A stretch of 64,000 bases of DNA from Geodermatophilus sp. DSM 44513 (GTDB lineage: Bacteria; Actinomycetota; Actinomycetes; Mycobacteriales; Geodermatophilaceae): contig NZ_CP135963.1 in assembly GCF_032460525.1 (NCBI RefSeq), forward strand, positions 2,852,001 through 2,916,000, written 5' to 3'. Shown piece after piece: positions 34,095 through 60,492 of the stretch. The notes below the pieces were generated by a model. The model saw only the letters and a program-made list of their open reading frames with translations. It ran no database searches and had not been told where the DNA came from. Position numbers and translations under genes: made by a program. The first letter of the stretch is position 1. Each line of letters opens with the position of its first letter.

Positions 34095-37000
34095 ATGAGC
34101 ACCGCGCCCGCCCCCGCCCGCGACGCGAGCACCCGGCCGGCCGTGGCGATCCAGGCGACCTCGACGCCGGTGCTCAGCTACGCGCTGGCGCACAACCGCG
34201 TCCCGGTCGTCTCCCGGCTGGCGTTCACCAACCACGGCGGTCCGGTGCGCGGCGCCGTGGTGCGGGTCGGCGTGTGCGACGCGGAGGGCCCGATCGGCAC
34301 GACCGTCGAGCTGCCCGTGGACCTCGACGCCGGGCAGACCACGGTGCTCAGCGACGTCGACCTGGTCATGGACCCGGCGGCGATGCTGCAGATCGAGGAG
34401 CAGCGGCCCGGCTCGATCGAGATCGACCTGCTGGTCGACGGTGAGGACGTCGGGGGCACCGCCGTCCCGGTGCAGGTGCTGGCGGCCACCCAGTGGCTGG
34501 CCGCCCCCGTGCCGCTGGCCCTGGAGATGCTCGCCGCGCACGTGCTGCCCAACCACCCGACGGTGACCGCGCTCATCGGCGAGGCCGCCGACCTGCTCGA
34601 GCAGGCCACCGGCAGCGGGTCGGTGCAGGGCTACCAGTCCGGCCCCGAACGGGTCGACGAGATCGTCGCGGCGCTGGCCGAGGCGGTGCGCCGTCGGCGG
34701 GTCCGCTACACCGAACCGCCGGCCGGCTGGGCCGACGTCGGGCAGAAGGTGCGCACCCCCGGCGACGTCCTCGACGGGCGGGTGGGCACCTGCCTGGACA
34801 CCGTGGTGACGATGGCCGCCGCGTGCGAGCAGGCCGGCATCCGGCCGCTGCTGTGGGTGGCCGAGGGGCACTCCTTCCTCGGCTACTGGCGCGAGGAGCG
34901 CAGCGCGGAGAGCGTGGCGACCACCGACGTCGCCATGCTGGTGGACCTGGTCGACCTCGGGCTGATCCGGCTGGTGGAGACCACGCTGCTCACCAGCCGC
35001 GGCACCGAGGGCGCCGACCTGCACGGCGCCGCCCACGCCGCCTGGCTGGCCGGCGACCCTGACCGGGTGCTCGGCGTCACCGACGTGCACCGGGCCCGCC
35101 GCGACGGCATCGTGCCGCTGCCGGCCCGAACCCGCGGGCGGGACGGCGCGGTGCAGGTGGTCGAGTACCGCCCGGCGGTGCACAGCGTGGCCGCCCGGCC
35201 GGTCGAGCGGCCGGCCGCGCCCGGGGGGTCGGCCGACCCGTCCGGCCGCCCGGAGGTCCCCGCCCGGGTGCAGCAGTGGAAGAACGGCCTGCTGGACCTC
35301 TCGCTGCGCAACCGGCTGGTCAACTACACCGAGCGGGCCGGGCTGCCGCTGACCGTCCCCGCGACCCACCTGGGCGCCCTGGAGGAGCTGCTGCACTCCG
35401 GCGCCGCCGTGCAGCTGCTGCCCGACGACCGGGTCGCCACCGCGGACGCCGACGCCGGGCTGTCCTCGGCCCGGGCGCTGCCGGACGACCGGCTGGCCGG
35501 GGTGCTCCTCGGGCGCCGGATCGTGCACGCCCAGGTCAGCGAGGGCGGGTACCTGCCGCGGCTGCGCCAGCTCGCGCACAAGGCCCGGACGGTGCACGAG
35601 GAGACCGGTGCCAACAACCTCTACCTGGCCCTGGGCAGCCTGCTCTGGGAGCTCGACGGACGGCCGCTGCGCTCCCCGCTGGTGCTGGTGCCGGTCACCC
35701 TCAGCCCGACCAGCCGCAACGGCGTCTACCGGCTGGCCCTGGACGACACCGGGGCCAGCACGCCCAACCACTGCCTGCTCGAGAAGCTGCGGCAGGTGCA
35801 CGGCCTGACCGTCCCGGCGCTCACCGAGCCGCACCCGGCCGACGACGAGGGCGCCGGGCCCACCGTGCCGATCGACCGCGCGCTGGAGGCGGTCCGCCGC
35901 GCGCTCGCCGACGCGGGCCTGCCGTACCGGGTGGAGCCCACCGCCGACCTCGCCGTCCTGCAGTTCGCCAAGTACCGGCTGTGGCGCGACCTGGACGAGC
36001 ACTGGGCCCAGCTGTCGGCCAACCCGCTGGTGCACCACCTCGTGCACCGGCCGGCCACGGCAGCCGGGGACCAGCACTTCCCCGACCCGGTCCCGGACAC
36101 CGCCGGCGGCACCGACCTCGACGAGCTGGCCGCGGCCTGCCCCGCCCCGGCCGACGCCTCCCAGCTGCGCGCGGTCGCCGAGGCCACCGCCGGGCGCACC
36201 TTCGTGCTGGAGGGCCCGCCCGGCACCGGCAAGTCCCAGACCATCACCAACCTCCTCGCCCGGGCGGTCGCCGACGGCAAGCGGGTGCTGTTCGTCGCGG
36301 AGAAGCGGGCCGCGCTCGACGTCGTGGCCCGCCGGTTGGAGGCCGCCGGCCTGGGCCCGTTCGCCCTCGACCTGCACGACAAGGGCGCCCGGGCCTCGGC
36401 GGTGCGCGCCCAGGTGCGGGCGGCCCTGGAGCACGCCGCCGCGGCCGGGGCCACGGTGGACGAGCACGCCGCCGCGGCCGGCGCCGACCTGCGCGCGGCC
36501 CGCCGCACGCTGGCCCGCTACGCCCAGCGGCTGCACGCGCAGAACGCCGCGGGGCTGTCCTACTACACGGCGCGGACGGCGACCCTGGCCCGGCGGGACG
36601 GCGTCCCCACCCTGCCGGTCTCCCCCGCCTTCGTGGCCGCCGCGTCGCCGGAGACCATCGCCGGGGTGCGCCACGCGCTGGCGCTCTTGCCCGACCTCGC
36701 CGACCTGGTGCGCCCCTCGCCGCGGCACGCGTGGGCGTTCGTCGACACCGCCCAGGTCGACCTGCCCGCCGCCCAGCACGCCGCGGCCGCCGTCGACCGC
36801 GCCGTCCGCGAGCTGCCCAGCGAGCCGCACCTGGCCCGGGTGCTGCGCGAGGTGCGCACCCCGGCCGACCTGGACGCGCTGGCCCACCTGCTGTGCGGCC
36901 CGGCGACCCCGCTGGACGTGCTCGACGAGGTGCCGACCGCGCGCTGGGCCGCGGCGACGACGGCGGTGCTCGGCGAGGTGGCCGCCTTCTCCGGCACCGT

Positions 37001-40000
37001 GCACCCCGGCCTGGAGCTGGCCACCCCGGCCGCGCTGGAGCTGCCGCTGGCCGAGCTGTATGTCGCCGCGCAGACCGCCCAGGCCGGCCGGTTCACGGCC
37101 CGCCGACGGGGGCTGGCCGGCGTCCGCGACCGGCTGGCGCCGGTGCTGCGCCCGGGCGTGCAGGTCCGGCTCGGCGACGTCCCCGACCTGGTCGCGCAGC
37201 TGTGGCGGCTGCAGACCGTCGCCCACGGCATCGCGGCCCGCGCCTCGGTCGTCCCCGGGCTGGCCGTGCCGCCGGGCTGGAACCCGCTGGCCGAGCCGGA
37301 GCTGCTGGTCGGGCAGGTCGAGTGGCTGGAGCGGGCCGGGGCGGCCACCGACAGCGCCAGCGACTTCGCCGTCGCGCTGCGCCGCTGGGTGGTGCAGGGC
37401 GAGGGCCCCGACGCCGACGCCGGTGCCGCCGTCACCCGGCTGCGGGACACCGTCACCGCGCTGCTGCGGGTGTGCCGCAGCAGCCCGCGGCGGCTGGCCG
37501 AGTGGGCCGGGGACGACGGCCTGGTGCTGCGCTGGCAGATGACCCGGCCCGAGCGCGGCGTCGAGCACACCGGGCTGCGGTCGCTGCGCCGCTGGGCGGA
37601 CCTGGTCGACACCCTCGAGCCGCTGCGCGCGGCCGGCCTGCACGAGGCGCGGGCGCTGCTGGTCACCGGCGAGCTGCCCGCCGAGGACGCCGTCCGCGCC
37701 CTGGACCGGGGCCTGGCGCGGGCCTCGGTCGCCGAGCGGCGGGACGCCTCGGGTCTGGACGACTTCGACAGCGACGCGCACGAGCGGGCCATCGGCCGGT
37801 TCACCGCCGCCGCACGGGTCGTGCGCGAGCAGCTGCGCGAGACGCTGCCGGCCGGCGTGCGGGCCGCCGGGCCGGCCGGCGCGGACGGCGCGGCCGACGA
37901 GGCCGCGGCGCTGCTGCAGGAGCTGACCGGCGCCCGCCGCGGGATGGGCGTGCGCACGCTGCTGGCCCGGCACGGCCGGCTGGTCACCGCGCTGATGCCC
38001 TGCGTGCTGGTCAGCCCGGACTCGGTGGCCCGGTTCTTCCCCGCCGAGGCCGGCCTGTTCGACCTGGTCGTGTTCGACGAGGCCTCCCAGATCCGGGTGG
38101 CCGACGCGATCGGCGCGCTGGGCCGGGCGCGGGCGGCCGTCGTCGTCGGGGACAGCCGGCAGATGCCGCCGACGTCGTTCGCCGAACCGGCGCACGGCAC
38201 CGCGGAGGACGACGCGGCCGAGCTGCCGGGCACCGCCACCGAGGACGAGGAGTCGATCCTGTCGGAGTGCGTGGCCGCCGGGGTGCCCCGGCAGTGGCTG
38301 TCCTGGCACTACCGCAGCCGCGACGAGTCGCTGATCGCGTTCAGCAACGCCACCTACTACGGCAACCGGCTGTCCTCCTTCCCGGCACCCACCCACGGCC
38401 GGCCCTCGGCCGACGTCGACGGCCGCGGCATCTCCCTGGTCCGGGTCAACGGCACCTTCCACCGCACCGGCGCCGGCCGGCTGCTGCGCACCAACCCGAT
38501 GGAGGCCAAGGCGGTGGTGGCCGAGGTGCGCCGCCGCTTCGACGCGGTGCCACCGGATGCGGAGCCCCCGTCGATCGGCGTGGTGACCTTCAACGCGCCG
38601 CAGCGGGCCTACATCGAGGGCCTGCTGCGCGACGCCGGCGACGACCGGCTGGTCGCGGCGCTGGACCGCACCGACGGCGAGGGCCTGCTGGTCAAGAACC
38701 TGGACAACGTGCAGGGCGACGAGCGCGACGTGGTGCTGTTCTCCACCGGGTTCAGCGTCGACGACCGCGGGGTCCTGCCGCTGGCCTTCGGACCGCTCAA
38801 CCGGGTCGGCGGGGAGCGGCGGCTCAACGTGGCGGTCACCCGCGCCCGCCGGCAGGTCATCGTGTTCTCCTCCTTCGACCCCGCCCAGCTGCGCGCCGAG
38901 CAGACCTCCTCGGTCGGCGTGAAGCACCTGCGCGCCTACCTCGACCTGGCCGCGCTGGGCACCGACGCGCTGCCGCGGGACGCCCGCCCGGTCGCCGTCC
39001 CCGACCGGCACCGCGAGGAGATCGCGGCCGCGCTGCGCGACCGGGGCCTGGCCGTGCGCACCGACGTCGGCCTGTCGGACTTCCGCGTCGACCTGTCCGT
39101 GGCCGCCGCCGGCACCCCCGACGAGCCGGTCGTGGCCGTGCTGCTCGACGGGCCGTCGTGGGCGCGGCGGCGCACGGTCGGCGACCGCGACGGCCTGCCG
39201 GTGGAGGTGCTCTCCGGGATGCTCGGCTGGCCGGTCGTCGAGCGGGTCTGGCTGCCGACCTGGCTGCGCGACCGGGAGGCGGTGCTGGACCGGCTGGCCG
39301 ACGCGGTCGCGGCCGCACCGGTGACCGCGGCGCGCGCGCCGGTGCGCCCCGCACCGGTGGTCCCCGCGCCGGCCGATCCCCCAGCGGTCGAGGTGCTGAC
39401 CGCAGTGCCGCTGCGGGCCGCACCGCCGGCGGTCGCGGCCGCCGTGCCCAGCGACACGGCCACCCCGGTGGACGCCGACCCCGCGGACGGTGACCCGCCG
39501 GCCGACGGCGAGACGCCGTTCGTCCCGTGGGCCCCCCGCGGCGGGCTGGAGCGCAAGGCGCTGGACTCCCTCGACGACCCGCGGGCCGCCCGCACCGTGC
39601 GGCGGGTGCTGACCGCGGGGCTGCACGCGGAGGGGCCGGTGCACCGCGCCCGTCTGGTCCGGCTGACCGCCGCCGCCTTCGGCCTCACCCGGGTCAGCGA
39701 GGCACGCCGCGACGCGCTGCTCCAGCTGCTGCCCGACGGCGTCGCCCACGGCGAGTTCCTCTGGCCCGAGGCACTCGACCGCAGCACCTGGACCGGCTAC
39801 CGCCGCCAGGCGGCCAGCGCCGACCGGCCGCTGGACCAGGTCGCCCCGGAGGAGGTCGGCAACGCCATGGTGGCGCTGTGCCGGGACGCCGCCGGGCTGA
39901 CCGAGGACGAGCTGTTCCCGCGCACCGCGGAGGTCTTCGGCTACCGCCGCCGCACGCCGTCGCTCACCCCGCTGCTGCAGGCCGCCCTGACCCGGGCGCT

Positions 40001-40052
40001 GGACACCGGCCGGCTGGTCCGCCAGGAGTCGGGCGCGCTCGTCGCGGGGTGA
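34095..40052 (+). CDS. Giant DUF4011 / SF1 helicase / Vsr-like / DUF3320 protein
   Basis: This 1985-aa protein is built in order from an Ig-like N-terminal domain (about 15-130), a transglutaminase-like region with Cys233 (GTCLDTVVTMAAACEQAG) and His259 (EGHSFLGYW), a DUF4011 segment from about 390 (WKNGLLDLSLRNRLVNY), and a split SF1 helicase. The helicase has Walker A GPPGTGKSQT at 707, DEASQ at 1328, QGDERDVV at 1540 and LNVAVTRARR at 1577. A Vsr/REase-like domain follows at about 1640-1770 (FRVDLSVA, VLLDGPSW, MLGWPVVERVWLPTW), then DUF3320 from about 1805 (VHRARLVRLTAAAFGLTRVSEARRD). The acidic and lysine residues of a classic PD-(D/E)XK site are not obvious. This architecture is known among antiphage candidates (for example the gene called Hhe, from memory). 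A DNA-acting defence role is likely but inferred. A GTPase/kinase operon follows. Confidence 0.85.
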   Translation: MSTAPAPARDASTRPAVAIQATSTPVLSYALAHNRVPVVSRLAFTNHGGPVRGAVVRVGVCDAEGPIGTTVELPVDLDAGQTTVLSDVDLVMDPAAMLQIEEQRPGSIEIDLLVDGEDVGGTAVPVQVLAATQWLAAPVPLALEMLAAHVLPNHPTVTALIGEAADLLEQATGSGSVQGYQSGPERVDEIVAALAEAVRRRRVRYTEPPAGWADVGQKVRTPGDVLDGRVGTCLDTVVTMAAACEQAGIRPLLWVAEGHSFLGYWREERSAESVATTDVAMLVDLVDLGLIRLVETTLLTSRGTEGADLHGAAHAAWLAGDPDRVLGVTDVHRARRDGIVPLPARTRGRDGAVQVVEYRPAVHSVAARPVERPAAPGGSADPSGRPEVPARVQQWKNGLLDLSLRNRLVNYTERAGLPLTVPATHLGALEELLHSGAAVQLLPDDRVATADADAGLSSARALPDDRLAGVLLGRRIVHAQVSEGGYLPRLRQLAHKARTVHEETGANNLYLALGSLLWELDGRPLRSPLVLVPVTLSPTSRNGVYRLALDDTGASTPNHCLLEKLRQVHGLTVPALTEPHPADDEGAGPTVPIDRALEAVRRALADAGLPYRVEPTADLAVLQFAKYRLWRDLDEHWAQLSANPLVHHLVHRPATAAGDQHFPDPVPDTAGGTDLDELAAACPAPADASQLRAVAEATAGRTFVLEGPPGTGKSQTITNLLARAVADGKRVLFVAEKRAALDVVARRLEAAGLGPFALDLHDKGARASAVRAQVRAALEHAAAAGATVDEHAAAAGADLRAARRTLARYAQRLHAQNAAGLSYYTARTATLARRDGVPTLPVSPAFVAAASPETIAGVRHALALLPDLADLVRPSPRHAWAFVDTAQVDLPAAQHAAAAVDRAVRELPSEPHLARVLREVRTPADLDALAHLLCGPATPLDVLDEVPTARWAAATTAVLGEVAAFSGTVHPGLELATPAALELPLAELYVAAQTAQAGRFTARRRGLAGVRDRLAPVLRPGVQVRLGDVPDLVAQLWRLQTVAHGIAARASVVPGLAVPPGWNPLAEPELLVGQVEWLERAGAATDSASDFAVALRRWVVQGEGPDADAGAAVTRLRDTVTALLRVCRSSPRRLAEWAGDDGLVLRWQMTRPERGVEHTGLRSLRRWADLVDTLEPLRAAGLHEARALLVTGELPAEDAVRALDRGLARASVAERRDASGLDDFDSDAHERAIGRFTAAARVVREQLRETLPAGVRAAGPAGADGAADEAAALLQELTGARRGMGVRTLLARHGRLVTALMPCVLVSPDSVARFFPAEAGLFDLVVFDEASQIRVADAIGALGRARAAVVVGDSRQMPPTSFAEPAHGTAEDDAAELPGTATEDEESILSECVAAGVPRQWLSWHYRSRDESLIAFSNATYYGNRLSSFPAPTHGRPSADVDGRGISLVRVNGTFHRTGAGRLLRTNPMEAKAVVAEVRRRFDAVPPDAEPPSIGVVTFNAPQRAYIEGLLRDAGDDRLVAALDRTDGEGLLVKNLDNVQGDERDVVLFSTGFSVDDRGVLPLAFGPLNRVGGERRLNVAVTRARRQVIVFSSFDPAQLRAEQTSSVGVKHLRAYLDLAALGTDALPRDARPVAVPDRHREEIAAALRDRGLAVRTDVGLSDFRVDLSVAAAGTPDEPVVAVLLDGPSWARRRTVGDRDGLPVEVLSGMLGWPVVERVWLPTWLRDREAVLDRLADAVAAAPVTAARAPVRPAPVVPAPADPPAVEVLTAVPLRAAPPAVAAAVPSDTATPVDADPADGDPPADGETPFVPWAPRGGLERKALDSLDDPRAARTVRRVLTAGLHAEGPVHRARLVRLTAAAFGLTRVSEARRDALLQLLPDGVAHGEFLWPEALDRSTWTGYRRQAASADRPLDQVAPEEVGNAMVALCRDAAGLTEDELFPRTAEVFGYRRRTPSLTPLLQAALTRALDTGRLVRQESGALVAG

Positions 40053-40082
40053 CCCGGTTCCGGGGCCACGGACCTCGCCCCC

Positions 40083-40122
40083 CGGTGCCCGACCCCGTGC
40101 TGCAGCGCGAGGTCGGGCACCG
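40083..40122 (+). terminator. Strong hairpin after the giant helicase gene
   Basis: CGGTGCCCGACC (40083-40094) pairs perfectly with GGTCGGGCACCG (40111-40122) over 12 bp, with a 16-base loop. It lies 30 bases after the helicase stop and about 210 before the kinase start. It probably separates the helicase transcript from the kinase/GTPase operon, at least partly. Confidence 0.6.
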
Positions 40123-40134
40123 TGGCACGAGGTC

Positions 40135-40169
40135 GGGGCGGGGCGGCGGGGCGGCGGGGCGGCGGGGCG
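40135..40169 (+). repeat. Short G-run tandem repeat, possible G-quadruplex
   Basis: Five runs of four G separated by CGGC-type spacers form a short repeat of unit GGCGGGGC. It lies 160-195 bases before the kinase start, after the hairpin. The run pattern satisfies the usual four-G-tract quadruplex rule. In DNA this GC-rich, chance occurrence is plausible, so function is uncertain. Confidence 0.4.
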
Positions 40170-40330
40170 TCCGGCCGGTCGGGCTCAGGGGCGGATGGGG
40201 GACCTCCCCGATGCCGGCGGTGCCGGCGGGCGGGCACCCTGGCAGGCGGACGACGGCCGGCTCCCACCTGGCCCCCAGGAACGGGGCCCAGCATCGGGGT
40301 GCCGCCGACGACGAGGGGAGGTGCGACCGC

Positions 40331-41434
40331 GTGGACGAGGCGCTGGACCCTGCCGGGGCGGTCGCCGACCTGGCCGGGACCCGCGAGATCCGGCTGCTGG
40401 AACCCGGCGACCCCGACCGCATCGGCCCCTACCACCTGATCTGCCGGCTGCCGCGCGGCGGTCAGGGCGCCGACGTGTTCGTCGGCTCGGCCGGCGAGGA
40501 CGGCGCGCTGGTGGTCATCAAGCGGCTGCCCGAGGCCGCCCCGGACCTGGCCCGCCGGCGGCTGGCGCGCGAGGTGGAGAACGCCGCCCGGGTGACCAGC
40601 CCGCGGGTGGCCAGCATCGTCGACCGGGACCTCACCGCCGACGCGCCCTACTACGTGCAGCAGTACGTGCCCGGGACGCCGCTGGACGAGTTCATGGCCG
40701 CCCGCGCCGGTGGGCTCACCGGCGGGGAGCTGCGCCGGATCGCCCTCGGCCTGCTGGCGGCGCTGCGGGACGTGCACGCCGCGGGCGTCGTCCACCGCGA
40801 CGTCAAGCCGGGCAACATCATCATCTGCGGCGACCAGGTGTGGCTGGTCGACTTCGGCATCAGCCGCTACGTCGGCCCCGAGCCGCCGTCGGGGACGGTC
40901 ACCTCCGGCATGGCGGCGCTGGGCACCAAGCTGTTCGCCAGCCCCGAGCAGCTGGCCGGGGCGGTGCTCAGCGAGGCCAGCGACGTCTACAGCTGGGGCC
41001 TGGTGGTCGCCTTCGCCGCCGGCGGGGTGCACCCGGTGGACCCCGACGACTCCCTGCCCGACTCCGACTACTACCTGGCGCTGCGCGCCGGTCGGCTGGA
41101 CCTGAGCCGGGTGCCGGGCGACCTGCTCGACAGCGTGCAGCAGGCGCTGCGCTTCCTGCCCGAGCGCCGCCCGACGGTGGACCGGCTGGCCCGCCAGGTC
41201 GAGCAGCGCACCCGCCGGCTGGTCACCGACCCGGCCGACGGCGACCCGCGCAGGCCGACCCGTGACCTGCCCTCCCTCGGGACGGTGACCGACACCGCCC
41301 GGCAGGGGCTGGCGCGGGTGGAGCGCGCGGTCGCCGACACCTGGTCCGGCTTCGCCGCCGCGGCCGCTGTCGTGGTGCTGCTCGGCCTGGTCATCGGGCT
41401 GGTGCTCGCCGTCGCCTTCCACGCCGTCTTCTGA
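40331..41434 (+). CDS. Tail-anchored Ser/Thr protein kinase
   Basis: This 367-aa Hanks-type kinase shows a glycine loop RLPRGGQGADVFVG, ATP-anchoring Lys64 (VVIKRL), the catalytic HRD at 155-157 (VVHRDVKPGNIII), DFG at 174-176 (LVDFGIS) and the P+1 loop SPEQL. The catalytic machinery is complete. After a basic linker it ends with one hydrophobic helix (about 340-367) and no extracellular domain, so the kinase is tail-anchored on the cytoplasmic face. The GTG at 40331 has GGGGAGG upstream. It is the first gene of a tight plus-strand operon with a small membrane protein, a double-GTPase and a GAP1-like protein, and probably phosphorylates one of them. Confidence 0.85.
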   Translation: MDEALDPAGAVADLAGTREIRLLEPGDPDRIGPYHLICRLPRGGQGADVFVGSAGEDGALVVIKRLPEAAPDLARRRLAREVENAARVTSPRVASIVDRDLTADAPYYVQQYVPGTPLDEFMAARAGGLTGGELRRIALGLLAALRDVHAAGVVHRDVKPGNIIICGDQVWLVDFGISRYVGPEPPSGTVTSGMAALGTKLFASPEQLAGAVLSEASDVYSWGLVVAFAAGGVHPVDPDDSLPDSDYYLALRAGRLDLSRVPGDLLDSVQQALRFLPERRPTVDRLARQVEQRTRRLVTDPADGDPRRPTRDLPSLGTVTDTARQGLARVERAVADTWSGFAAAAAVVVLLGLVIGLVLAVAFHAVF

Positions 41435-41484
41435 CCCGCCGTCTCCTGACCCGCCGCCTTCTGACGCCCCCGAGGAGGATCCCC

Positions 41485-41622
41485 GTGTCCGGCCTGTACG
41501 AGCGCGCGCTGGCCCAGCAGCAGCGGGACGCCCGCCGCCAGCGGTTCCGGGAGCGCCGCGCGGTGCTGCTGGCGCTGCTGGCGCTGAGCACCGTCGTCTT
41601 CTTCGTCCTGTTCGTGCGCTGA
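41485..41622 (+). CDS. 45-aa single-pass membrane protein
   Basis: The GTG at 41485 is preceded by CGAGGAGGAT. The 45-codon protein has a basic, glutamine-rich N-terminal helix (YERALAQQQRDARRQRFRER) and one hydrophobic helix (about 27-43). The first part is a potential coiled coil. It ends 2 bases before the ATG of the GTPase gene, so the two are cotranslated. It is unknown, and a membrane dock for the kinase or GTPase is a fair guess. It is too short to be found by similarity alone. Confidence 0.7.
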   Translation: MSGLYERALAQQQRDARRQRFRERRAVLLALLALSTVVFFVLFVR

Positions 41623-41624
41623 CG

Positions 41625-42797
41625 ATGCCGCTGACGACGCGCCGCCGCGTCTGCCCCCGCTGCCTGGAGCCGCTCACCGCGCCGGTGTGGCGCGACGTCA
41701 CGGGCGCGCCCGCACGCCCCCCGGTCGAGCGGCGCAGCCGCTGGCAGCGGCTCGTCGACCCGCTGCGCGCCGACCCGCTGCCGGCGCCCACCGCCCGGGA
41801 CGCCGCCGGTGCGGCCGCGGCCAGCGTGGTGCCGACCTGCCCGCGCGGGCACCGGCTGCCGCCGGAGTACCTGGACCGGCCCACCCTCGTCGTCGGCCTG
41901 GTCGGGCTGACCGGCGCGTCGAAGAGCACCTACCTGACCGTGCTCATCGACCTGCTGCACGAGGGGGCGCTGGCCCCGCTCGGCATCTCGGTGGAGATGG
42001 ACGAGGAGAGCGCGGCCCGCTTCGACGACTCCCGCTACCGGCTGCTGGTGCAGCGCCAGCAGCTGCCGCTGACCCTGCCGCTGCTCGGCGGTGGCAGCTC
42101 GCCGGACCCGTTCGTGCTGGTGCTGCGCGGCACCGGCGCGGGAGGCGCGGTGAACCTGGTCTTCTTCGACGCCTCGGGCGAGCAGCTGTACCGCAGCGAG
42201 GACATGGGCCAGTACGGCCGCTTCCTCTACGCCGCGTCCTCCCTGCTGGTCGTGCTCTCCCCCGGCGTCTTCCCGCGGCTGCGCTCGGTGGCCGACCCCG
42301 GCGAGGACGCCATCGGCCTGGCCCGGCACACCCAGATGGTGGTCAACCTGGCCACCGTGCTGCGCGCGGCCCGCAACCTGCCGCCGGACGCGCACCTGGA
42401 CGACGTCGCGACCGCCGTCGTCCTGAGCAAGGCCGACAAGCTGCGCGCGGTGCCCGACTTCCCGGCCGCCACCCTGCGCGACCCCGACCTGCGGGCGGTG
42501 CCGCTGGCGCAGTGGTTCGCCGAGGTCCGCTCGTCCAGCTCGCGGCTGGTCGACTTCCTGGAGGTCAGCGGCGGGTCCAACCTGCTGACGGCGCTGCTGC
42601 ACCGGCTGCCGCAGCCCACCGTGCACGCCGTGTCGGCCACCGGCGCCGACGCGCGGGACGGCGGGTACCCGCGGATCGCCCCGGTCGGGGTGCTGGACCC
42701 GCTGCTGGTGCTGCTGGCCCGCGCAGGGCTGCTGCCCGCCGACGGGCTGGACCCCGAGGAGCTGGACACCGGCCCACGCGCCGGGTGGTCCTGGTGA
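41625..42797 (+). CDS. Zinc-ribbon P-loop protein of the double-GTPase type
   Basis: This 390-aa protein begins with a zinc site (C10, C13 in RRRVCPRCLEPL; C72 and H76 in PTCPRGH) and then a TRAFAC-like GTPase fold. The P-loop is GLTGASKST (94-102). The Gly before the catalytic Lys is Ser, a variant of GxxxxGK[ST]. The G3 position is FFDASGEQLY (Asp182), and the G4 position SKAD (268-271) has Ser in place of Asn. This matches the double-GTPase 2 group seen beside GAP1 proteins. It lies 2 bases after the small membrane protein gene and ends at the tandem repeat preceding GAP1. Nucleotide use is inferred. Confidence 0.75.
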   Translation: MPLTTRRRVCPRCLEPLTAPVWRDVTGAPARPPVERRSRWQRLVDPLRADPLPAPTARDAAGAAAASVVPTCPRGHRLPPEYLDRPTLVVGLVGLTGASKSTYLTVLIDLLHEGALAPLGISVEMDEESAARFDDSRYRLLVQRQQLPLTLPLLGGGSSPDPFVLVLRGTGAGGAVNLVFFDASGEQLYRSEDMGQYGRFLYAASSLLVVLSPGVFPRLRSVADPGEDAIGLARHTQMVVNLATVLRAARNLPPDAHLDDVATAVVLSKADKLRAVPDFPAATLRDPDLRAVPLAQWFAEVRSSSSRLVDFLEVSGGSNLLTALLHRLPQPTVHAVSATGADARDGGYPRIAPVGVLDPLLVLLARAGLLPADGLDPEELDTGPRAGWSW

Positions 42798-42833
42798 GCG
42801 GGTGGTCCTGGTGAGCGGGTGGGCCCGGTGAGC
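42783..42833 (+). repeat. 17-bp tandem repeat spanning the GTPase/GAP1 junction
   Basis: The unit GGGTGGTCCTGGTGAGC occurs at 42783-42799 and exactly again at 42800-42816. A third copy at 42817-42833 differs at two bases. Each unit holds a GTGA stop/start overlap. The first provides the GTPase stop and the third the best GAP1 start. Because 17 is not a multiple of 3, each added copy moves the start to a new frame. Confidence 0.85.
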
Positions 42834-44489
42834 GGGCGGGCCTGCCCGCAGGCGCTGTACACCTCGGCCAGCCGCACGCTGGAGGGGCCGGGGTTCGGCG
42901 TGTACGCGCACTCGGCCGACTGGCCGGCCGAGGTGGGCCGCACCCGCACCGCGCTCGGCGCGCTGGTCGGCTCCGCGCCGGTGGACGGCGAGGCCTACGG
43001 GGTGCACTCCCGCGCCGGCGGGCGGGTGCTGCACCGCTCGGTGGCGGCCGCCGCCGACGGCTTCGGCCGCCCCGGCAACTACCTGGTGCACCTGCTGTGG
43101 GACGGCAGCGGCCGGCTGGGCCCGCGCGACCTGCTGGCGCTGCGCCGGGCCGGCCGGTTCCTCGACGCCCTGCCCGAGGGTTCCTCCCCCCGGGCCGACC
43201 TGCCGCCGCTGCGGGTGGCGCCGGCCGGCCGCCGGGTGCCGGCGCTGGACCCCGACGAGGTCGACGCCCTCACCCCGGCGCTGGCCGGCCTGCTGGCCAC
43301 CCTCGCCGCCGGGAGGGGTGAGTGCCTGCTCCCCGCGCGGACGGCCGCGGGGCGGGAGGTGGCCGAGGTGCTGTTCGCCGTCCTGCCGCGGGCGCTGGTG
43401 GCCGGGGTGTCGCTGCACGCGGGCACCCGCGGGGACGACGGCGACACCGCCCCGGTCGTCGTCCGGCTCGCCGAGGTACCGGCAGCCGTCCCGGCCGGGC
43501 GGCAGGACACCGAGCGGGCCGCCGCGCTGCTGGAGGCGGCCGGCCGGGCCGAGCTGGCCCCCGACGACCTGCCCGACCTGCGCCGGCTGGACACCTGGCT
43601 GTTCGCCGGCACCTGGGCCGGTCTGGACGCGGGCCGGCTGTCCCCGGACCAGGTGGCGAGCGTGCTGGAGTCCTCGGCCGCGCCGGGCTGGCTGGCCCGC
43701 GGGGACAACGCGGCCGCGGCCCTGGCCGCCGCGGCGGACAGCGCCCCGGCCGAGGCGGCGCTGGGGGCGGCGGTGGACCGGTGGCCGGCGGTCGCCGGGC
43801 TGGTCCGCGACCGGGTGCTGGGCGCGCTGCTGGACGAGGTGTTCGACCAGGCGGCGGGCCCGGCCGAGGTCGCCGTCGAGGTGGCCGCGGTCGGCCCACG
43901 GGACCTGTGCCGGGCACTGGCCGCCGAGGTGCGCCGCGGCCGCCGCATCGCCCGCCTGGACCGCGCGAGCGGCCAGCTCGTCGAGCAGGCCCTCGACCTC
44001 GGCGTCGACCTGCCGCTGCTGGCCCTGACCGACCGGACCTGGGAGCTGGCGGTGCTGGCCACCCGCTCGCCGGTGGTGGGCGAGGCGCTGGTCACCCAGT
44101 GGCGCACCGCCGCGGGCTGGACGGCGGGGCACGGCGCGCTGCTGGGGGACCTGCTGGTCGCCGACCCCGGCTGGCTGGCCCGGCTGGACGGCGTCGTGCC
44201 GGCGTCCGCTCTGCCGGCGGCGCTGCGGTGGGCGGCGCTGCGGCTGGACGCGGCCGGGGTGGAGGCGCTGGCCGCCGCGGTGGCCGGCGGGCCGCGCGCC
44301 GGGCAGGGCTGGGCGCTGCGCGAGGTGGTGTTCGGCTCCGAGCTGCCCGCCGCGGAGGTGGAGCGGGTGCTCGGCCGGCGCCTGGAGCTGCTGCTGGTCG
44401 ACGACGGCTGGCCCGCGGACGTGGCCGCGTCCCTGGCCCGGAGCCGCGGTGGGGACGCCCTGCGCCGCCGCTTCCGCCGCGACGGCTGA
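42828..44489 (+). CDS. GTPase-associated protein 1 (GAP1)-like protein
   Basis: This protein of about 553 aa opens with ACPQALYTSASRTLEGPGFGVYAHS, then VHSRAGGRVLHRSV and GFGRPGNYLVHLLW. The N-terminal pattern fits the GAP1-N2 domain of the GTPase-associated proteins described in bacterial conflict systems. The rest is a long helical, leucine- and alanine-rich solenoid (AALLEAAGRAELAPDDLPDL). There is no membrane segment and no catalytic motif. It is the usual partner of the double-GTPase, which supports both calls. The preferred GTG 42828 lies in the third copy of a 17-bp repeat. GTG 42819 is also in frame. It likely forms the GTPase effector or scaffold. Confidence 0.75.
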   Translation: MSGRACPQALYTSASRTLEGPGFGVYAHSADWPAEVGRTRTALGALVGSAPVDGEAYGVHSRAGGRVLHRSVAAAADGFGRPGNYLVHLLWDGSGRLGPRDLLALRRAGRFLDALPEGSSPRADLPPLRVAPAGRRVPALDPDEVDALTPALAGLLATLAAGRGECLLPARTAAGREVAEVLFAVLPRALVAGVSLHAGTRGDDGDTAPVVVRLAEVPAAVPAGRQDTERAAALLEAAGRAELAPDDLPDLRRLDTWLFAGTWAGLDAGRLSPDQVASVLESSAAPGWLARGDNAAAALAAAADSAPAEAALGAAVDRWPAVAGLVRDRVLGALLDEVFDQAAGPAEVAVEVAAVGPRDLCRALAAEVRRGRRIARLDRASGQLVEQALDLGVDLPLLALTDRTWELAVLATRSPVVGEALVTQWRTAAGWTAGHGALLGDLLVADPGWLARLDGVVPASALPAALRWAALRLDAAGVEALAAAVAGGPRAGQGWALREVVFGSELPAAEVERVLGRRLELLLVDDGWPADVAASLARSRGGDALRRRFRRDG

Positions 44490-44705
44490 GGCCCGCCCTC
44501 CCCGGCCGCGACCTCCCCCGCGCCCGCTGGGACCGCGGTGGCGCGGCGGCGCGGGACGGCCGCGGCACCAGGTCCGCCGCGTACGCTCGGCGCCGGCCGC
44601 CCGAGGGCCCGGTCCGGCCCGGTCCGGACCATCCGGACGGGTCGGGTCGTCGACGCAGGTGCGACCCGGGTGGCGAGGCAGCCCGCAGGCGGAAGGGGAC
44701 CCGGC

Positions 44706-44768
44706 GTGCACACCGTCGCCCACCTCACGACGGACACCACCGGGGTCCTCCCGGTCGGCCCCACCTGA
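44706..44768 (+). CDS. Possible 20-codon leader ORF before the second kinase
   Basis: A GTG at 44706 opens a 20-codon ORF ending in TGA 2 bases before the ATG of the next kinase gene. The peptide VHTVAHLTTDTTGVLPVGPT is threonine-rich. A weak GGAAGGGG element lies upstream. It may be a translated leader or chance. The rest of the 281-base gap before the kinase holds no other gene that I can support. Confidence 0.25.
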   Translation: MHTVAHLTTDTTGVLPVGPT

Positions 44769-44770
44769 GC

Positions 44771-46342
44771 ATGCCGTCGGCCGGGGACGTCCTGCAGGAC
44801 CGCTACGAGCTCACCTCGTCGATCGCGACCGGGGGCATGGGTGAGGTGTGGCGCGCCCAGGACCGGGTGCTCGGTCGCACGGTCGCCGTCAAGGTGCTCA
44901 AGAGCCAGTACACCGGCGACCCGGTCTTCCTCACCCGCTTCCGCACCGAGGCCCGCCTGTCGGCCGGCCTCACCCACCCGAACGTCGCCGTCCTGCACGA
45001 CTACGGCGAGGTGGAGCCGGCCGCGCCCGGCGGCGACCGGCTGGTGTACCTGGTGATGGAGCTGGTCGACGGTGAGCCGCTGTCGGCCGTCCTGGCCCGC
45101 GAGGGACGGCTGACCCCCGAGCGCACGCTGCAGCTGCTCGGCCAGGTCGCCGCCGGGCTGGCCGCCGCGCACGCCGGCGGGATCGTGCACCGCGACGTGA
45201 AGCCGGCCAACCTGCTCGTCCGCACGGACGGCGTCGTCAAGATCACCGACTTCGGGATCGCCTGGTCGGCGGCCAACGCCACCGTCACCCGCACCGGCCA
45301 CGTCGTCGGCACCGCGCAGTACCTCGCGCCCGAGCAGGTGCAGGGGCAGAAGGCCACCCCCGCCGCCGACGTGTACGCCTGCGGCACGGTCGCCTACGAG
45401 TGCCTGGCCGGGCGCCGTCCCTTCGACGGCCCGGTCGCGGTCGAGGTGGCGCTGCAGCGGCTGTCCGAGCAGCCCGCGCCGCTGCCCGCCGACGTCCCCG
45501 CGCCGGTGCGCGGCCTGGTGGAGCGGATGCTGACCACCGACCCGGCCGCGCGCATCGCGGACGGCGCCGCGCTGGCCGCCGCGGTCGCCGGCGCCGCCGC
45601 GGGTTCCCTGCCGGGGTCACCGGAGCCGGAGGACGGGCGCACGGCGACCCGCGTGCTGCCCCCCGTCCCCACGCAGCAACCGGTCACCCGCACGCTGCCG
45701 GTCGCCGCGCCCGCCGACCCGGTCGTCCCCGGCCTGCCCGGCGGTGACGTGCCCGACGACACGGACGACTCGGACCACGACGCCGACGCCACGGACGGGA
45801 CCGACGGCGAGGACGACGACCGCGGGCGGGTGCGCCGGCTGGCGGTGCCCGTGCTGGTCGGACTGGTGGCCTCGGCGCTGGTCGTCACCGGGTTGGTGCT
45901 CGGGTCCCGCGACGTCCCGCCGCCCCCCGCGCCGTCGGCGGCCGTCGCGACGAGCAGCGCGCCGCCGTCACCGACCGCGCCGCGCGCGACGGCCCCCCTG
46001 GTGCGGGTCGACCCCGCCGACCACGTCGGCCGGCCGGTGGCCCAGGCGCAGGCCTGGCTCGCCGGGCTGGACCTGCCGGTCGTGCTCAGCCCGGTGCAGA
46101 CCACCGACGTCCCCGCCGGTCAGGTCCTCGCGGTCGCGCCGGCCGGGGACCTGGCGGTCGGGACGCCGGTGACGGTCACCCACGCCGTCGCCCCGCCCCC
46201 GCCGCCCCCTCCGCCGGTGGCACCCGCGCCGCCCCCGCCACCCGTGGCGCCGACCGAGGCGGCCGGCGGGAACGGCAACGGGAACGGGGACGACGACGGG
46301 CGGGGCCGCGGTCGCGGCCGGGACGACGACGAGGACGACTGA
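44771..46342 (+). CDS. PASTA-type transmembrane Ser/Thr protein kinase
   Basis: This 523-aa PknB-like kinase has an intact kinase domain: glycine loop IATGGMGEVW, Lys41, HRD at 140-142, DFG at 160-162, and GTAQYLAPEQV. An acidic juxtamembrane linker (residues 320-350) leads to one membrane helix (357-379) and an extracellular region. That region holds one PASTA-like domain (410-473; GRPVAQAQAWLAGLDLPV), a proline run and a low-complexity NGNGNG/RGRGRG/Asp tail. PASTA domains bind muropeptides, so it may report envelope state. One PASTA is fewer than in PknB. ATG 44771 fits the standard kinase start. It closes the block begun by the helicase. Confidence 0.88.
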   Translation: MPSAGDVLQDRYELTSSIATGGMGEVWRAQDRVLGRTVAVKVLKSQYTGDPVFLTRFRTEARLSAGLTHPNVAVLHDYGEVEPAAPGGDRLVYLVMELVDGEPLSAVLAREGRLTPERTLQLLGQVAAGLAAAHAGGIVHRDVKPANLLVRTDGVVKITDFGIAWSAANATVTRTGHVVGTAQYLAPEQVQGQKATPAADVYACGTVAYECLAGRRPFDGPVAVEVALQRLSEQPAPLPADVPAPVRGLVERMLTTDPAARIADGAALAAAVAGAAAGSLPGSPEPEDGRTATRVLPPVPTQQPVTRTLPVAAPADPVVPGLPGGDVPDDTDDSDHDADATDGTDGEDDDRGRVRRLAVPVLVGLVASALVVTGLVLGSRDVPPPPAPSAAVATSSAPPSPTAPRATAPLVRVDPADHVGRPVAQAQAWLAGLDLPVVLSPVQTTDVPAGQVLAVAPAGDLAVGTPVTVTHAVAPPPPPPPPVAPAPPPPPVAPTEAAGGNGNGNGDDDGRGRGRGRDDDEDD

Positions 46343-57246: not shown

Positions 57247-60200
57247 TCAGCGGACGACGGTGGCCATCTCCACCAGCCGGCACAGCGCGTTCACCTGGCG
57301 CAGCTGCTCCGGCGTCCGGACGGCGGCGTCCAGCAGCTCCTCGCTCATGACCACGACGGCCAGCGCCTTGGCCCGGGACACCGCCACGTTGAGCCGGTGC
57401 AGGTCGTACAGGAAGGAGACGCCGCGGGGCGCGTCCTCGGCCGACGTGGACGTCATCGAGTAGACGACGACCGGCGCCTCCTGGCCCTGGAAGCGGTCCA
57501 CGGTGCCGACCCGCGCGCCGGGCAGCAGCCGGCGGACGGCGCCGACCTGGTTGTTGTACGGCGCGACCACCAGCACGTCGTCCGGGCCGATGCGCGCCCG
57601 CTCCCCGTCCGCGTCGGTCCACCCCACCCCCTGCAGCGACTGCCACACCCCGGCCACGGCCGCGGCCTCGTCGTCGGAGACGGCCGCCGCGGGCCGGGTG
57701 TGCGCGACGAAGCGGACGGCGAGCCCACTGGCCCAGCCGTCGACGGCGATCCGCTCGCGGCCGGCCGCGGACTCCAGCCGCCCCTCGTAGGCCAGGTCGG
57801 ACACGAACGCGGTCAGCGCCGGGTGCATCCGGTAGGTGCGGTCGAGGAAGACGCCGCGGTCCTCCGGCACGGTGGCGTGCCCCTCGAGCAGGTGCTCCAG
57901 CGCGGACAGCCCCGACTCCCCCGGGTGCACCGCCTGGGTCGGCTGGGCCAGCTGCTGGGGGTCGCCGAGCAGCACCAGCGAGCGGGCCGACCGGGCGACG
58001 GCGACCGCGTTGGCCAGCGAGAACTGCCCGGCCTCGTCGACGACGAGCACGTCGACGGCCTGCGCCAGGTCTGGGCGGGCCCAGAACCACGAGGTGCCGC
58101 CGACGAGGGTCGCCGTCCCGTCGAGCAGCTGGGCGGCCACGTCGGCGGAGTCCCGGGACCAGGCCACCCCGGGCGCGCCGCAGGCCTGGTGCTCGTCGCA
58201 CTTCTGCAGCGCGGGGCGCTCCACGGCGCGCAGCACGTTGCCGATGACGGCGTGCGAGGTCGCGGTGACGCCGACCTTCTTGCCGGCGTCCAGCAGCGCG
58301 CGGATCAGCCGCGCCGCGGCCCGCGTCTTGCCGCTGCCCGGCGGCCCCTGCACGGCGAGCACCTGGCCGTCCAGCGCCCGGCCGAGCCGGACGACGGCGT
58401 CCCCGGCCTCCTCCCCCGGCAGCCGCCGGGTGTCCGGTGGGACGACGCGATCGAGCAGCGCCTGCCCGAGGCAGGGCCGGCCGGCGAGGACGTCGTCCGC
58501 GGTGGCGGCGATGGCCTCGCGCAACGGCCGGTCGTCGATCGGTCCCTCGGGGCCCAGCCCGCGGGCAGCCGCCGGCGGCTTGGCCGCCTTGACCACCATC
58601 CGCCCGCCGGCGGCGTCGAGCTCGCGCACCTCGCCGATGCGCACGCGGGTGTCGACGTCGACGGCGCGGGAGCCGACGGAGAGCTTGGTGTCCTGCGGCG
58701 GGAAGTAGAACTCGTACAGCTTGCTGCGCTTGTCGGCGCCGACCTCGAAGCCGCCGGAAACGCCGCCGAGGGCGGTGCGGTCTTCCACGAGCTGCTCGTC
58801 CTCCAGGTCGGCCCGGGCGAAGAACTCCCACCAGCCGGGGCGGGCCTCGCGGCGGTGCCACTGCACCAGGTCGCCGAGCAGCGGGTGCCCGGCGTCGCGC
58901 AGCCGCTCCACGAGGGCGGACTCGGCGGCCTCGGCGTCCGACCCCGGCGCCGGGGCGGCGACCTCGGCGGCCGCCGGGCGGGGCAGCGCGCCGTACTGGG
59001 CGGCCAGCTCGGTGCGCTGGGTCTCCAGCCAGTCGTGCAGCTCGCGGGTGGAGTCGACGTCGTCCTGGTTGTAGCGCTCGATGGCGTGCAGCCGGGCGGG
59101 GTCGCGGTCGGCGAGCCACTTCTCGTACTCGACGACGCTGCCCATCGCGTCGGCGACGTCGCCGGTGTGCTCGCGGCCGTAGAACGCCTCGACCTTCTTG
59201 ATCGAGTACGACTCCCCGCTGATCCGCATCCCCTGGCGGACGACGGGCAGCAGGTCGACGAACCGCCCGGCGCGCAGCAGCTGGTCCAGCTCGGCCTCGC
59301 GGACGCCGTACCGCCCGGTGAGCCGCTTGAGGGCGGAGACCTCGTAGGCGGCGTAGTGGTAGACGTGCATGCGCGGGTCGGCCCGCCAGGCGGCGACGAG
59401 CAGGTCGACGAGCTGGGTGACCATGCGCTGCTCCTCGGCGGCGTCGTGCGCCCACAGCGCGGTGAACCGCCCGGCGCGGTCGCCGAGGCCGGCGAGGTAC
59501 TCCAGCCCCTGGCCGTCGCCGGCCAGCGGGTCGCCCTCGAAGTCCAGGTAGCGGTCGCCGGGGCTCGGCTCGGGCAGTCGCAGCAGGCCCTGGGCGAGCA
59601 GCGGCGGCAGCAGCGTGCGGGTGGGCCGCTCGGCCTGCCGGCCGCGCAGCTGCTCGCGGGCCTGGTCGCGCAGCCGGGTGCGGGCGGCCCGGCCGAGACC
59701 CGCCTCCTTGAGGGCGGTGTCGGAGGCCTCGGCGAGCGCGATGAGGGTGGCGATGCCGGCGCCGCGGAGGGCGGCGCGCTGGTCGCGGCGCATGCCGGCG
59801 ACCAGGCTCAGGTCGTCGTCGGCCCGGAGCTCGGCGGAGCACCGCGGCGCCCAGGTGCACTGGTCGCAGTGGCTGACCGGGACCGGCGCGGTCGGCGGGA
59901 CGTCGCCGACGAAGACCTCGAGGCGGCCGCGGGCGCGGCGGGCGTAGGCGGCGACGTCGACCAGCCGCCACGGCCGCTGCGCGCCGTCCCCGGTGACGAC
60001 GTGGATGCGCCGTGGCTGGAGGCGTTGCAGCGTGGCGAGCCGGTCGGCGTAGGTGGCCATCTGCAGCAGCGCGGGCACCTTGACCCGTCGGGCGAGCTTG
60101 GCGTCGGCGACCTCGTAGGACCACCCGCCCAGCGCCGACGGTGTCGGGGTCTTCAGCAGGAAGTCGGCCTGCCCGCCCCACCGGCCGTCGAACAGCGTCG

Positions 60201-60492
60201 CCTGGTGGACGACGTCGACGCCGGCGCGCATGGCCTCGACCGTCGCCGCCTCGTCCCGGCTGCCCTGCAGTCGGGCCACGCTGAGCCCCTGCTGCTCCAG
60301 GTACTCCAGGTAGGACAGCTCGTGGGCGATGCCGAGGTCGGCGACGAGCACCGTCTGGTCGCTCACCCCCTCGGCCGGGGGCGCGAGGAGGCCGTCGGCG
60401 ACGGCGAGGTTGAGCGCGGTGAGGTGGGTGCACTCCTGGTGGCGGGTCAGGTCGCTGGGGCTGAGCACCAGCCGGCCGTCGAGGCGGTACAC
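57247..60492 (-). CDS. TM0106-type RecB nuclease / DEDD exonuclease / SF1 helicase
   Basis: This 1081-aa protein combines three active domains. An N-terminal RecB-like nuclease shows GQADFLLK, VADAKLAR and an Fe-S type cysteine set (C21, then HCDQCTWAPRC). A middle RNase H-fold exonuclease has YLDFEGDPL, YHYAAYE and YNQDDVDSTREL, the DEDD metal acids. A C-terminal SF1 helicase carries GPPGSGKT (about 715), VDEAGQFS, TVDRFQGQEAPVVV and LNVAVSRAKAL. It belongs to the TM0106-type nuclease family, whose physiological role is unknown; DNA or RNA processing is likely. The GTG at 60492 begins the RecB-like region. It converges with the thioesterase gene. Confidence 0.85.
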   Translation of the reverse strand: MYRLDGRLVLSPSDLTRHQECTHLTALNLAVADGLLAPPAEGVSDQTVLVADLGIAHELSYLEYLEQQGLSVARLQGSRDEAATVEAMRAGVDVVHQATLFDGRWGGQADFLLKTPTPSALGGWSYEVADAKLARRVKVPALLQMATYADRLATLQRLQPRRIHVVTGDGAQRPWRLVDVAAYARRARGRLEVFVGDVPPTAPVPVSHCDQCTWAPRCSAELRADDDLSLVAGMRRDQRAALRGAGIATLIALAEASDTALKEAGLGRAARTRLRDQAREQLRGRQAERPTRTLLPPLLAQGLLRLPEPSPGDRYLDFEGDPLAGDGQGLEYLAGLGDRAGRFTALWAHDAAEEQRMVTQLVDLLVAAWRADPRMHVYHYAAYEVSALKRLTGRYGVREAELDQLLRAGRFVDLLPVVRQGMRISGESYSIKKVEAFYGREHTGDVADAMGSVVEYEKWLADRDPARLHAIERYNQDDVDSTRELHDWLETQRTELAAQYGALPRPAAAEVAAPAPGSDAEAAESALVERLRDAGHPLLGDLVQWHRREARPGWWEFFARADLEDEQLVEDRTALGGVSGGFEVGADKRSKLYEFYFPPQDTKLSVGSRAVDVDTRVRIGEVRELDAAGGRMVVKAAKPPAAARGLGPEGPIDDRPLREAIAATADDVLAGRPCLGQALLDRVVPPDTRRLPGEEAGDAVVRLGRALDGQVLAVQGPPGSGKTRAAARLIRALLDAGKKVGVTATSHAVIGNVLRAVERPALQKCDEHQACGAPGVAWSRDSADVAAQLLDGTATLVGGTSWFWARPDLAQAVDVLVVDEAGQFSLANAVAVARSARSLVLLGDPQQLAQPTQAVHPGESGLSALEHLLEGHATVPEDRGVFLDRTYRMHPALTAFVSDLAYEGRLESAAGRERIAVDGWASGLAVRFVAHTRPAAAVSDDEAAAVAGVWQSLQGVGWTDADGERARIGPDDVLVVAPYNNQVGAVRRLLPGARVGTVDRFQGQEAPVVVYSMTSTSAEDAPRGVSFLYDLHRLNVAVSRAKALAVVVMSEELLDAAVRTPEQLRQVNALCRLVEMATVVR

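Follow-up and report, generated by a model that had tools for sequence, protein, structure and literature searches.

A conserved operon of a kinase, a small membrane peptide, a DO-GTPase and GAP1 beside a ProA-type helicase gene in Geodermatophilus

Six genes lie side by side on the plus strand of Geodermatophilus sp. DSM 44513 (genome size 4.63 Mb), at positions 34095..46342 of the 64,000-nucleotide stretch analysed here (the window), and the question raised by this block is whether it acts as one system or joins units of separate history. A preliminary description of the DNA had proposed a single defence or signalling island, consisting of a giant helicase, two kinases, a 45-amino-acid membrane protein, a zinc-ribbon double-GTPase and a GAP1-like protein. 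All six genes are present, on the same strand and contiguous in this genome, and their proposed identities are borne out by coordinates, Pfam matches and transmembrane (TM) analysis. Our preferred explanation, to which we give a probability of roughly 0.55, is that the block holds three units that are adjacent because of descent: the helicase ProA; an operon of the kinase KIN1, a 45-amino-acid peptide, a DO-GTPase and GAP1, which would serve as a membrane-attached G-protein switch; and a second kinase, KIN2.

The four-gene operon and its parts

The operon and the signals within it are the following.

40331..41434, + strand: KIN1, tail-anchored Ser/Thr kinase of 367 amino acids, operon gene 1 (Pkinase 92 bits; single C-terminal TM segment, residues 345-363)
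41472..41478, + strand: GAGGAGG, likely ribosome-binding site of the small open reading frame (Shine-Dalgarno-like motif at most 20 nucleotides upstream in 23 of 24 loci)
41485..41622, + strand: 45-amino-acid peptide with one TM segment and a basic N-terminal half, located after KIN1 and before the GTPase in 24 of 24 loci
41625..42797, + strand: zinc-ribbon DO-GTPase2 (PF19993, 32.1 bits, cut-off 27)
42782..42844, + strand: 17-bp tandem repeat, 3.7 copies, over the GTPase/GAP1 junction
42828..44489, + strand: GAP1 of 553 amino acids with a GAP1-N2 domain (PF20013, 29.6 bits, cut-off 24)

The order KIN1, peptide, DO-GTPase2, GAP1-N2 is kept in all 24 carriers found among 112 genomes of the family (Geodermatophilaceae), neighbourhoods having been fetched for 23 carriers besides the window; in G060 the contig stops inside GAP1 and the remainder stands on another contig. 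Strong GTPase matches (E <= 1e-130) occur in 24 of the 112 genomes, and GAP1 is present in the same 24; G064 has one weak GTPase match besides, and G101 and G102 have weak second copies. Of the carriers, 15 belong to the window's genus, which has 26 genomes in the set, six to the genus that includes contigs named Modestobacter, and two and one to two further genera. A scan of named genomes gave at least four loci. By its operon proteins, the closest named relative is Geodermatophilus pulveris (GTPase 94%, GAP1 87%). Every genus with two or more rows stays together in the operon tree, and distances in the operon correlate with those in ProA (r 0.87 to 0.91 for the three large genes and 0.73 for the peptide; 91 pairs from 14 genomes). 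Within genera, the operon thus appears from its sequences to be inherited vertically, with the chromosome. The four genes, we infer, form one conserved operon and are co-transcribed.

The start of KIN1 was set at 40331 because the longer reading frame runs back into the helicase. Its K64, HRD (155-157) and DFG (174-176) are invariant in 24 of 24 orthologues, and a linked kinase with invariant catalytic residues, predicted to be active, accompanies the GTPase at every locus. The small reading frame that follows was taken as a real gene because it encodes exactly 45 amino acids in 24 of 24 loci, and it is likely to be a constant part of the operon. Its product follows the pattern S/T/A-G-L/M-Y-E/Q-R-A, then Q-Q and A-R-R, then one hydrophobic segment; a database search with its profile returned 101 homologues, mostly of 45 amino acids (range 37-59) and with no Pfam domain, and those with organism names come from Geodermatophilus, Modestobacter and Blastococcus, i.e., from Geodermatophilaceae only.

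In the GTPase, the motifs GLTGASKS (94-101), DASGE (182-186) and KAD (269-271) are recognizable, and DASGE, with the conserved glutamate of Walker B, is invariant in the 24 orthologues and in all 20 rows of A1. The zinc-ribbon residues C10, C13, C72 and H76 are likewise invariant in the 24 orthologues, with one ligand set seen. The start of GAP1 at 42828 was set by homology (P0001, 553 amino acids). PF20013 is matched in 13 of 13 GAP1 homologues, and the window's score is the second lowest among the matches listed in the class; in a profile alignment, similarity to other GAP1 proteins covers residues ~6-198 and reaches no further than 198. In the GAP1 model (predicted local distance difference test, pLDDT, 86) the C-terminal half (~241-541) consists of helical repeats, and no Pfam match to GAP1-M or GAP1-C was obtained in the 13 homologues. 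Conservation is even along the sequence of GAP1 in 23 of 24 rows, on which the invariants were also computed, the contig-truncated row being left out. Neither GAP1 nor the GTPase has a convincing solved homologue by sequence in the PDB. The profile matches place the two proteins of the core pair in the DO-GTPase and GAP1-N2 families. At the junction of the two genes, a 4-nucleotide stop/start overlap is possible in the other 23 loci and impossible in the window.

ProA and KIN2 beside the operon

Three further features of the block flank the operon.

34095..40052, + strand: ProA-type anti-phage helicase of 1985 amino acids, a separate unit (NF058533, PADLOC, Pfam)
40071..40134, no strand: imperfect inverted repeat between helicase and operon, a terminator-like hairpin without a T run (two 32-nucleotide arms, 84% complementary)
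44771..46342, + strand: KIN2, Ser/Thr kinase with one TM segment, outside the conserved operon (Pkinase 158 bits)

The helicase matches the NCBIfam equivalog NF058533 (anti-phage protein ProA) with 1676.1 bits, above the curated cut-off of 1500 and over the full profile (1-1903 of 1903), a score that shows no difference from the family, and PADLOC PDC-S37 with 846 bits. In Pfam it carries DUF4011 (112 bits), AAA_11/AAA_12 and an MTES_1575 nuclease over cut-off (51.6 bits). Judged by these profiles it is ProA, of a stand-alone anti-phage helicase-nuclease family, and is predicted to protect; the tie to defence made in the preliminary description agrees with this. The profile expectations of that description held for DUF4011, DO-GTPase2 and GAP1-N2, all over cut-off; GAP1-M gave no Pfam match, and DUF3320 scores 20.3 bits against a cut-off of 25. 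In our literature search no paper was recognized as describing ProA; the portion consulted of a study of P. aeruginosa reports a defence hotspot with a core DUF4011 gene at its flank (PMC10250203).

ProA exceeds the NF058533 cut-off in 77 of the 112 family genomes, with or without the operon, and in 23 of the 26 genomes of the window's genus, the remaining three scoring 1324-1428 bits. At E <= 1e-3 helicase matches rise to 107 of 112, a figure that overstates the spread of ProA because 7 of 14 control genomes match too (none over cut-off), so that distant helicases are counted. Since ProA is widespread, its presence tells little about the operon. In operon-free Geodermatophilus a threonine dehydratase gene follows ProA in all nine genomes examined (11 non-carriers exist), and its product is 81-83% identical to the window's copy, which sits upstream of ProA on the opposite strand. 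Five Modestobacter-group carriers (G101, G103, G085, G089 and G102) have three DUF4011-helicase relatives each, and in the first four these share the operon's contig, within ~100 kb of it.

KIN2 begins 281 bases after GAP1, as the preliminary description had it; of the PASTA-like ectodomain reported there, one PASTA match is found, below cut-off (18.1 bits, cut-off 23.2). KIN2 stands less than 1 kb after GAP1 in three of the 15 Geodermatophilus carriers (window, G052 and G058) and ~3.5 to 6.3 kb downstream in 10 others, the copy in G059 being only 51% identical. No copy was seen in the stretch fetched for G053, the contig of G060 ends there, and the stretches from the nine carriers of other genera gave none either. 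KIN2 is more likely an ordinary PASTA-like kinase, a local neighbour forming a unit of its own, as far as sequence and position can tell. In L035 (3795-6384), a phytochrome-SpoIIE phosphatase gene and a STAS gene lie on the other strand between GAP1 and KIN2, and at this place L043 (14574-17148) carries genes of matching size; a light or stress switch is a possible identity for this insert. Among 84 flanking ORFs (open reading frames) of relatives, seven match SpoIIE and six match PHY, both in one protein in L035 and SpoIIE alone in L053.

Known systems and competing explanations

GTPase-centred GAP1 systems with FNIII and variable-effector parts have been described by Kaur et al. (2020; PMC7159879), and the preliminary description's link to such systems fits this account. 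In the portion of that paper drawn on here, the DO-GTPase usually carries two zinc ribbons, and a third, kinase theme is found in 10% of GAP1-N2 neighbourhoods, in actinobacteria only, with PP2C and vWA genes adjacent. The operon shares with what is set out there a zinc-ribbon DO-GTPase beside GAP1-N2, a linked kinase with a TM segment (predicted here to be active) and an actinobacterial host. In contrast to those systems, FNIII, PP2C and vWA are missing from the block and no variable effector is seen, a fixed 45-amino-acid membrane peptide is added, and GAP1-M/C goes unrecognized by Pfam. FNIII-repeat proteins were sought with Pfam in the six block genes and 10 window neighbours and none was found, nor is FNIII among the 25 commonest families listed for the 84 flanking ORFs of relatives (39 further families fall outside that list); the same Pfam scan of block and neighbours gave no adjacent PP2C or vWA genes. 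The operon contains no highly variable effector, the peptide being fixed and GAP1 evenly conserved; an effector may be encoded elsewhere. Because FNIII and variable effectors were looked for and not found, we do not class the operon as a complete GAP1-N2 conflict system; it is best described as a variant of the GTPase-GAP1 kind minus those parts.

Conservons (Cvn; PMC13343842) offer another comparison: in the part of the source used here, they are likewise actinomycete four-gene operons of a kinase, a GTPase, a GTPase partner and an extra protein, a layout by analogy with which our operon may work similarly. They have a histidine kinase-like CvnA, a Ras-like CvnD and a roadblock CvnB, whereas the operon has a Ser/Thr kinase, a DO-GTPase and GAP1, and in the Pfam scan none of the conservon families (histidine kinase-like, roadblock, CvnC, CvnD) is shared with the block.

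Beyond the family, the Pfam GAP1-N2 model finds matches in 50 of 394 genomes of the class. Forty GAP1-N2 loci from other families and 15 further DO-GTPase loci were fetched (11-20 kb each). The GTPase is found in 37 of the 40, and a kinase within 6 kb in three, all of one genus of another family; the order kinase, GTPase, GAP1 is thus seen in 3 of 37. One of them, L069 (5587-11638, + strand), has a kinase fused to a WD40-like propeller, a gene for a 181-amino-acid membrane protein with five hydrophobic segments, the GTPase and GAP1; L070 shares the membrane gene, and a search of 22 genomes of L069's family gave the GTPase only in the three kinase-bearing loci. The order kinase, membrane protein, GTPase, GAP1, as read from these sequences, arose or survived in two distant lineages, which supports a functional link among the genes. 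In L069, which belongs to another actinobacterial family, a valyl-tRNA synthetase-like gene comes after GAP1.

Sequence or model gives the gene order, the active-site motifs, the hydrophobic segments, the fixed peptide and the GTPase fold, and the proposed switch would run as follows. The four genes would be expressed from one transcript, and the membrane-anchored KIN1 and peptide would hold the cytosolic zinc-ribbon GTPase and GAP1 at the membrane. Some signal would activate KIN1, leading to phosphorylation of the GTPase, GAP1 or the peptide; GAP1 might then shift the GTPase to another nucleotide state with its N-terminal lobe and bind an output partner encoded elsewhere with its C-terminal lobe of helical repeats. 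If right, this gives a small, stable four-gene DO-GTPase/GAP1 form without variable parts, in actinomycetes with named strains, in which the role of the GTPase-GAP1 pair becomes directly testable; the fixed peptide, which has no Pfam family, is a handle on membrane attachment. A tempting wrong grouping is also corrected, and the four-gene unit becomes worth testing in isolation.

That all six genes make one defence or signalling island, as their shared strand and contiguity in this genome and the fact that 13 of 15 Geodermatophilus carriers have KIN2 no more than ~6.3 kb downstream could suggest, is very improbable and was rejected on distribution: ProA occurs independently of the operon (77 against 24 of 112 genomes), the close spacing of KIN2 is lost in most relatives, and the flanks are mostly metabolic. 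Co-occurrence, which the preliminary description had named as its own check, is not seen elsewhere, no ProA homologue being found in the 40 GAP1-N2 loci or in the 15 further DO-GTPase loci; its doubt that all parts act together is supported by this distribution. The narrower idea that ProA and the operon are partners, with the G-protein module controlling the helicase or sensing for it, strikes us as improbable, despite a real closeness of the two. All 14 Geodermatophilus carriers that have both on one contig (window included) show ProA on the operon's strand, no more than 2.2 kb upstream of it, and in G107 the same arrangement has a distance of 2.7 kb. Six Modestobacter-group carriers have ProA ~5-25 kb downstream (G100 with only a partial frame, 692 amino acids that match the model's first third); in two g3 carriers the two are on different contigs. 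Such a partnership is opposed by the same difference in spread and by the 0 of 55 outside loci, by other ORFs in several of the upstream gaps (0.2 to 2.7 kb), and by the hairpin that separates the two in the window, which the preliminary description had noted and which is real. A quick-method ProA tree groups the 14 Geodermatophilus carriers in a single clade (support 99), with nine non-carriers outside and G107 as a second carrier line; G059, G047, G061 and the Modestobacter-group carriers were left out, and one row was dropped for length. The adjacency is read as descent because the ProA clade, the distance correlation and the operon tree all fit chromosomal inheritance within genera. One loose end is that the two have stayed close together in different genera, which counts in favour of some link.

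A reduced GAP1-N2 conflict system of the third theme of Kaur et al. (2020), in which the kinase, the GTPase and GAP1 would detect an invader and the 45-amino-acid peptide, as the effector, would damage the membrane in abortive defence, is a more serious competitor that we nonetheless hold to be unlikely. Its core pair with a kinase partner is just what the portion of that paper cited above assigns to this theme, the operon does contain a one-TM peptide, and its presence is patchy. The peptide and GAP1 are, however, conserved in length and sequence rather than hypervariable. A signalling switch is preferred over a fast-evolving conflict system because the four parts are constant, the block is without FNIII, vWA, PP2C and variable effectors, and vertical inheritance is stable within genera. 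The boldest lead comes from the N-terminal half of GAP1, whose weak DENN-like structural match has a Z no higher than unrelated rows in the same list and far below shared-fold level. On this reading, GAP1-N2 proteins would regulate Rag/Arf-like DO-GTPases in bacteria through a longin/DENN-like lobe, and in this operon they would be coupled to a Ser/Thr kinase in the membrane and to a 45-amino-acid membrane peptide of their own: a second actinobacterial G-protein system unrelated to conservons and a possible bacterial counterpart of the eukaryotic module. We regard this as a long shot. For eukaryotic DENN modules, Rag/Rab GTPases and TagF of the type VI secretion system (T6SS), the structural Z is not above unrelated rows and no PDB sequence match was found, and a literature search on DENN, longin and TagF, judged by title and abstract opening, gave no paper linking GAP1 to DENN.

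Flanking genes and minor observations

The 10 window neighbours scanned with Pfam are mostly metabolic genes. A mobile island was considered and rejected, no integrase or transposase being found among the 16 window genes scanned (block and neighbours). A defence island was likewise rejected: PADLOC matched one of the 10 flanking window genes at E <= 1e-5 (helicase-like, ~11 kb off) and one of 10 genes picked near ProA in six operon-free loci. A scan for consensus terminators, which have a T run, did not list the inverted repeat at 40071-40134. An ARAGORN call of tRNA-Val at 39287-39383 falls within the helicase reading frame and is probably a false positive. At 57247-60492 on the minus strand lies a gene for a 1081-amino-acid protein, probably a helicase, the C-terminal third of which matches the PADLOC models MkoA, MkoC and DpdJ. 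Among the 15 further DO-GTPase loci, a kinase is present in two, ~5 kb away in one and adjacent in L133 (2080-10192, - strand), where an FtsW-transpeptidase fusion gene is found near the DO-GTPase and the divergent kinase, a hint that some DO-GTPases may be linked to the cell wall.

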